Below, piece after piece: positions 284 through 503 of a DNA stretch of 41,737 nt. Made by a program: the position numbers and the translations under genes. Source of the stretch: Candidatus Bathyarchaeota archaeon (GTDB taxonomy: Archaea; Thermoproteota; Bathyarchaeia; Bathyarchaeales; DTEX01); NCBI GenBank assembly GCA_018396435.1, contig JAGTRG010000009.1, forward strand, positions 1 through 41,737. Reading direction: 5' to 3'. Under the pieces are notes generated by a model that was given only the letters and a program-made list of their open reading frames with translations, was not told the origin of the DNA and made no database searches. Every line of letters begins with the position of its first letter. Positions within the stretch are counted from its first letter, which is position 1.

Positions 284-503
284 CGGGCGGTAGCTCAGCC
301 TGGTAGAGCTTCCGAACTAGCCTCTTAAAATCAAACGTGAGGCTGGTGGAGACGCTGTAGGTGCCCACTGCAGGTGGGTGCATTCTCAGCCTACCGGGCA
401 TACAGAAACCGGAGTGTCGCAGGAGAGCTGTGAGGATGAAAACCCCAGCTCGGCGATTTCAAAATGAAGGTTTCACTTCATGAAAGTCCTGCCCGCCCGA
501 CCA
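284..503 (+). tRNA. tRNA-Tyr(GTA) interrupted by four putative introns (about 315-353, 361-407, 424-457, 463-485), encoded CCA
   Basis: Exons reassemble to CGGGCGG TA GCTC AGCCTGGTA GAGC T TCCGG CTGTAGA CCGGA GTGTC GCAGG TTCAA(G)T CCTGC CCGCCCG A CCA (77 nt). C1:G72 plus GTA fits archaeal tRNA-Tyr. Each insert has a bulge-helix-bulge-like fold (e.g. TCCG/TGGA, TGTA/TACA, TCGC/GCGA, TTTC/GAAA). Exact boundaries uncertain by 1-2 nt. Confidence 0.78.

Follow-up and report, generated by a model that had tools for sequence, protein, structure and literature searches.

Can a tRNA gene that is interrupted four times, twice within its T arm, still be a working gene, and why would one of its introns be kept while the others come and go? 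These questions are raised by positions 284-503 of the window, that is, the whole stretch of 41,737 nucleotides of Candidatus Bathyarchaeota DNA analyzed here (contig C84 of its genome). A preliminary description had read this locus as a tRNA-Tyr(GTA) gene split by four introns. That reading is borne out: the exons are conserved, relatives without particular introns exist, and a BHB (bulge-helix-bulge) helix is found at each junction.

Structure of the split gene and its conservation

The four introns of the tRNA-Tyr(GTA) gene are located at 30/31, 37/38, 53/54 and 59/60. The parts of the gene are as follows.

284-314 (+): exon 1, tRNA-Tyr positions 1-30, with C1 and the D arm; D-loop positions 15-22 lie at 298-306; identical or nearly so in 50 loci of the order
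315-353 (+): intron 1 (30/31), 39 nt; BHB CTTC/GGAG, bulges CG-A and AC-G, 9-bp intron helix
354-360 (+): exon 2, positions 31-37 with anticodon GTA, from comparison with relatives
361-407 (+): intron 2 (37/38), 47 nt; BHB central helix CTGT/ACAG; in 50 of 50 order loci
408-423 (+): exon 3, positions 38-53, from comparison with relatives
424-457 (+): intron 3 (53/54), 34 nt; relaxed BHB CGCA/GGCG (3 bp plus A.G), intron helix GAGCTG/CAGCTC
458-463 (+): exon 4, positions 54-59 (TTCAAA), from comparison with relatives
464-486 (+): intron 4 (59/60), 23 nt; BHB TTCA/TGAA, bulges AA-A and AG-T
487-503 (+): exon 5, positions 60-73 and the encoded CCA, from the sequence and the ARAGORN call on the spliced product

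Removal of 315-353, 361-407, 424-457 and 464-486 leaves a 77-nt product, the length that had been predicted, which ARAGORN calls as tRNA-Tyr(gta) with every stem formed. C1 is read at position 284, A73 at 500 and the encoded CCA at 501-503. The product thus has the cloverleaf, the GTA anticodon, C1:G72 and A73 of a tRNA-Tyr(GTA), and every element named in the preliminary description is present.

Introns 1, 2 and 3 lie exactly where they had first been placed, whereas intron 4, first put at 463-485, has to be moved by one base. Since relatives without intron 4, such as L032, read TTCAAATCCTGC, the junction is TTCAAA-intron-TCCTGC, and the boundary 464-486 also yields a perfect 4-bp central helix, TTCA/TGAA. 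The central helices of introns 1 to 4 have 4, 4, 3 and 4 bp, that of intron 3 being of the relaxed form. The expected exon junctions of introns 1, 3 and 4 are seen in relatives that naturally lack them, although this is a comparison of sequences without RNA data. Intron 1 is missing from L054, L057, L064, L067 and L070, in which TTCCG runs directly into GCTGTAG; intron 3 is missing from L024, L025, L032 and others, and intron 4 from L029, L030, L032 and others.

A DNA search of 61 genomes, including the window's own, gave matches in 56, and 50 loci of the order (the window and 49 relatives) were parsed. Family and genus labels (f6, f22, g1 and so on) are anonymous labels of this comparison set. 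All 50 loci give a nearly identical 73-nt body (C1-G72) with few changes, and their intron sets differ. With presence (1) and absence (0) of introns 1 to 4 written in order, the patterns are 1111 (14 loci), 1100 (25), 1101 (4), 1110 (2), 0111 (2) and 0100 (3), so that intron 2 is the only intron found in every locus. In most of the order relatives the central helices are CTTC/GGAG, CTGT/RCAG, CGCA/(G or T)GCG and TTCA/TGAR, of 3-4 bp. Because the tRNA body is near-constant while the intron sets vary, it can hardly be doubted that the introns are genuine insertions and that the gene is functional. A functional tRNA-Tyr gene with four putative BHB introns, two of them in the T arm, is thus the reading that the comparison supports.

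The window's own genus contains genes with two, three and four introns. Such relatives within one genus, carrying a near-identical gene, allow the gain and loss of introns to be followed as a natural experiment. In a scan of named genomes, both T-arm introns in this exon context occurred in 20 DNA stretches, all from Candidatus Bathyarchaeota. Over all 23 nt, the window's intron 4 matches exactly that of two genomes of family f6 (G044 and G059; L026 and L027), and its intron 3 is 76-82% like theirs. Two genomes of the window's genus, G010 and G001, are 85-93% alike in intron 1 and 60 bp of upstream flank; they have no intron 3, and their intron 4 differs from that of the window. Among relatives of the same genus, intron 4 is either a different one or missing. 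It is plausible from these sequences that the 3' part of the gene has moved by transfer or gene conversion. The idea that intron 4 moves about in the genome as a mobile element was rejected, as its sequence is present only once there.

The unspliced locus was not detected by ARAGORN, and no Rfam family was found at 240-540, even at E<=1. Since both are blind to the unspliced gene, genomes of this group can seem to have no tRNA-Tyr. A locus missed by standard tRNA finders could also be a structured RNA of another kind that merely resembles a split tRNA. We give this next to no credence: an RNA-family match of that kind, named in the preliminary description as a refuting outcome, was not obtained with Rfam, and splicing yields an unremarkable tRNA-Tyr common to relatives with fewer introns. 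A check that the preliminary description had called for was a search for another tRNA-Tyr(GTA). The genome (1.39 Mb, 91 contigs) is 87.4% complete, and no second tRNA-Tyr was found among its 22 further Rfam tRNA matches, which were inspected by sequence and, where possible, by ARAGORN isotype. Within the limits of searches of an incomplete genome, the gene at 284-503 is very probably the only tRNA-Tyr(GTA) of the organism. A missing second copy cannot be excluded at this completeness, and the locus could then be a decaying pseudogene with the real tRNA-Tyr in the unassembled part. This is very improbable, however, because the exons are intact and almost invariant across the order while the introns vary, and all stems pair.

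Another tRNA gene, with a 37/38 intron, lies at 78-176 on the minus strand of the window. It was recognized by eye as tRNA-Ala(CGC) with G3:U70; ARAGORN assigned no isotype to it.

Pairing of the anticodon intron with the D-loop

Intron 2, the intron that is always kept in the order, has the following elements.

361-381 (+): hairpin I, 5'-terminal in intron 2, of about 8-10 bp; two-sided change in 8 of 14 predicted pairs; no K-turn motif seen
387-390 (+): CAGC, complementary to positions 31-34 (GCUG) and adjoining U35
391-399 (+): CTACCGGGC, 9-nt complement of D-loop positions 15-22 (298-306)
402-404 (+): ACA, 2 nt 3' of the D-loop complement

The layout of intron 2 is a hairpin, YAGC in most loci, nine bases complementary to the D-loop, 0-2 nt, and ACA. 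All nine D-loop pairs can be formed in 46 of the 50 order loci, compared with 1% of shuffled introns. A model of the 37/38 intron and its exon neighbours was used to search genomes of the class and the phylum, and the element was found in 114 of 151 and 120 of 250 of them, respectively. Loci were sampled from these matches, and splicing was modelled by aligning each locus to a tRNA-Tyr profile weighted by position, with every intron charged at a fixed cost. Across the phylum (118 loci, 29 families), nine pairs are formed in 95 loci and eight in 15.

The pairing is kept when the D-loop changes. In the 110 loci that form at least eight of the nine pairs, D-loop base 17 forms C-G in 65, U-A in 40 and U-G in 5, and C-A never occurs; base 20 forms U-A or U-G, C-G or A-U, with two A.A as the only exceptions. 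When D-loops were permuted among 35 family-by-type representatives, the observed pairing was reached in none of 5000 trials. In a separate alignment of 33 sequences, 18 cells had two-sided change against 5.1 expected, none of 500 column shuffles matched this, and sliding the partner along the alignment destroyed the pairing. The 99.3% pairing in this alignment is inflated by the way its sequences were selected, all of them from loci with eight or more pairs; covariation and not the pairing percentage is the informative part. Phylogenetic correction was limited to taking one representative per family and D-loop type. Since positions 31-34 are invariant, their pairing with CAGC rests on conservation and not on covariation.

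The ACA keeps its place beside the D-loop complement: its offset in the 110 loci is +2 in 94, +1 in 9 and 0 in 4. It is also kept in 41 of 44 introns in which a separate downstream RNAG forms the BHB helix. While covariation demonstrates the pairing of D-loop 15-22 with intron 2, it is only inferred that this helix would exist before splicing.

Two loci of family f17 (L182 and L183) were seen by eye and stand outside the pairing counts. They have another D-arm, AGCTCAATGG, and the intron complement is changed to match, as CCATTGAGC in L182 and less regularly in L183. In family f7, six loci (L060, L061, L063, L065, L066 and L068) have an extra mini-hairpin between the ACA of intron 2 and the BHB strand.

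Splicing order and possible roles of the helix

This genome, like most of its relatives, has two genes for tRNA-intron endonucleases. The alpha protein (L211) aligns over nearly its full length with the catalytic chain of Aeropyrum pernix (3p1z_B) and keeps the active-site Tyr, His and Lys as well as the Lys of the crenarchaea-specific loop (K40, aligned with A. pernix K44). The beta protein (L212) is without the catalytic His. Given the residue and subunit roles described in PMC6379350, the genome encodes a two-subunit EndA of the crenarchaeal broad-specificity type; its assembly as (alpha-beta)2 is inferred from sequence.

We propose that a precursor with all four introns is transcribed, that this EndA would cut it at the BHB motifs, and that the exons would then be ligated; cleavage is inferred. 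Before splicing, 391-399 would pair with D-loop positions 15-22 and 387-390 with positions 31-34, so that neither the D-stem nor the anticodon stem could form. The back-folded conformer would allow for the BHB of intron 1, a motif that involves positions 25-28. Removal of intron 1 would rejoin positions 30 and 31, and the predicted fold of the window would then tip by about 1 kcal/mol to a cloverleaf-like form with the BHB of intron 2. The central helix of intron 3 occupies T-stem positions 48-51; this intron should be gone before the T stem forms, an event that would complete the BHB of intron 4 (59/60) in full. Because of these dependencies, removal of intron 1 before 2 and of intron 3 before 4 is inferred to be the likely pathway.

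Predicted folds are partly in agreement with this scheme. The D-loop helix crosses the BHB helix of intron 2, which leaves two options, a pseudoknot or a pair of alternative structures. Unconstrained folds of seven loci contain the D-loop helix in the full precursor. Under constraint, the back-folded state of the precursor with intron 1 is favoured in 41 of 41 loci, by a mean of 13.5 kcal/mol. After removal of intron 1 it remains favoured in 36 of the 41, by a mean of 3.2 kcal/mol; in the window itself the preference reverses slightly (-55.5 vs -56.5). Taken together, these margins support a switch with intron 1 removed first, while the preference that remains in the 36 loci counts against the model. 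These energies are nearest-neighbour estimates on computed folds in the absence of proteins. On this modelling, an ordered-splicing switch appears to be the likeliest role of the helix. Given that persistence in 36 of 41 loci, and given that the helix is retained in the five order relatives from which intron 1 is missing, it cannot serve solely to order introns 1 and 2, and a second function is likely. The 3-bp central helix of intron 3 in the window is a further point against the model. The preliminary description had suspected that splicing order may matter on account of the T-loop introns. The folding predictions back the suspicion itself, but the strongest case is made by introns 1 and 2, on the D-loop and anticodon side, and not by the T-loop introns alone. 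Taken as a whole, a functional tRNA-Tyr(GTA) with four EndA-excised BHB introns, a back-fold of intron 2 and the order 1 to 2 and 3 to 4 is an interpretation we hold with good confidence, with cleavage, timing and order inferred and without RNA evidence.

Might intron 2 be conserved only because it makes a good splice-site fold, its D-loop complement stabilizing the precursor and having no further role? The complement does lie directly 5' of the BHB strand ACAG. However, the D-loop helix crosses the BHB helix, as a pseudoknot or an alternative state, and so gives it no support, and the ACA stays put when the BHB strand moves downstream. We regard this explanation as possible but rather unlikely.

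The same constancy of the ACA is among the points in favour of a different idea, that the precursor acts as an H/ACA-like guide in cis. In such a guide, the D-loop:intron helix would be the lower stem and CAGC the 3' guide on positions 31-34, and U35 would be shown to Cbf5 for pseudouridylation before splicing. Known archaeal H/ACA guides have a lower stem of 7-9 bp and a ruler of 14-16 nt (PMC4652768, PMC7991803). The D-loop:intron helix has 9 bp and is followed by ACA after 0-2 nt, as the 7-9 bp stem and ACA/ANA of a guide require; counted from the ACA in the 5' direction, the base opposite G34 is 15 nt away. In addition, Psi35 of Sulfolobus pre-tRNA-Tyr is reportedly made by an H/ACA RNP (PMC7991803). 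On the other hand, no K-turn or K-loop was found in hairpin I, the presumed upper stem, by inspection of its sequences by eye and without a motif search. The closing pair of hairpin I is 18-20 nt from the ACA, not 14-16, and only the base opposite G34 satisfies the ruler. A standard H/ACA guide is thus rejected for want of two defining features. It had been predicted that a TruD/Pus7-family synthase would be absent, a result that would have spoken for a guide RNA behind Psi35. The prediction failed: 57 of the 61 genomes searched encode TruD (aPus7 family), and so does this one. We consider a guide in cis unlikely on this balance. Intron 2 shares with H/ACA guide RNAs the 9-bp lower stem, the ACA just after it and the distance of 15 nt between the ACA and the base that faces the 5' neighbour of U35. 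It differs in having no visible K-turn, a hairpin offset by 3-5 nt, a 5' stem strand that is the tRNA D-loop itself, and a target in cis. That it may work like an H/ACA guide is a speculative analogy, and we do not class it as a member. The broader proposal that across the phylum pre-tRNA-Tyr guides its own modification in an H/ACA-like manner is likewise doubtful. In this proposal, the guide stem and ACA box would be built jointly from D-loop and 37/38 intron and would present U35 for pseudouridylation in cis. If true, it would explain why the 37/38 intron persists while the others come and go.

A box C/D guide was also rejected, as neither the C box RUGAUGA nor the D box CUGA can be read in intron 2 of the window. 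The box C/D guide in the intron of Haloferax tRNA-Trp (PMC4090602) likewise has conserved intron sequence complementary to its own tRNA; here C/D boxes are missing, and the complementary stretch, which has an ACA after it, is directed at the D-loop. For the retention of an archaeal tRNA intron, the pairing with the D-loop and the nearby ACA would offer a concrete reason, one that can be tested by mutation.

Four and five introns in one gene

Three introns have been stated as the maximum per archaeal tRNA gene (PMC8450103, PMC4390854, PMC6379350). The preliminary description had placed four at or beyond the known extreme. Four do exceed the published maximum, but they are not the extreme. Among the sampled loci, four introns also occur in families f11, f18 and f24, and seven genomes of f22, a family of the same class (L186, L187, L200-L204), have five, at 9/10, 30/31, 37/38, 53/54 and 59/60. 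The central helix of each of these introns has 3-4 bp. The additional 9/10 intron of f22 was recognized by reading the upstream sequence, and loci with merged neighbouring introns (L178, L189, L190 and L199) were left uncounted. No report of four introns in one archaeal tRNA gene was found in the open-licence literature, to which our search was limited, and no earlier such report for the Bathyarchaeota lineage turned up there. In Asgard genomes more than half of the tRNA genes have multiple introns (PMC11291895). As the main text of that study gives no per-gene maximum, the priority of four introns is uncertain. With this reservation, the highest reported number of introns per tRNA gene would rise from three to four, and to five in a sister family.

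Among the closest known cases are the genes for tRNA-Glu(UUC) and tRNA-Pro(UGG) in Pyrobaculum (PMC4390854, PMC8450103, PMC6379350). There, too, BHB introns occupy canonical and non-canonical positions, genes with two or three introns are served by an (alpha-beta)2 endonuclease, and some introns lie so close together that one must go before the next motif can form. The present gene has four introns (five in f22) against a maximum of three, and it belongs to Bathyarchaeota, not Thermoproteales. Atabeyarchaeia and Freyarchaeia of the Asgard group likewise have many non-canonical introns (PMC11291895), and four-intron genes are not excluded there. The permuted tRNA-Tyr(GUA) of Thermofilum pendens (PMC3218864) is of the same isotype and also combines an intron at 37/38 with a BHB junction at 59/60. 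That junction joins permuted halves, whereas the present gene is collinear and has an ordinary intron at 59/60.

In the f22 loci (L186, L187, L200-L204) a tandem copy of the 5' acceptor strand lies just upstream of the gene, TCCCGCGGATCCCGCGGTAAG in most; the first copy is degenerate in L200. In family f32, a second intron of tRNA-Tyr lies inside the D-loop in L135 and L143, the latter recognized by eye only. The D-loop intron of L135 is 54 nt long, is located at 15/16 and has a 20-bp intron helix.
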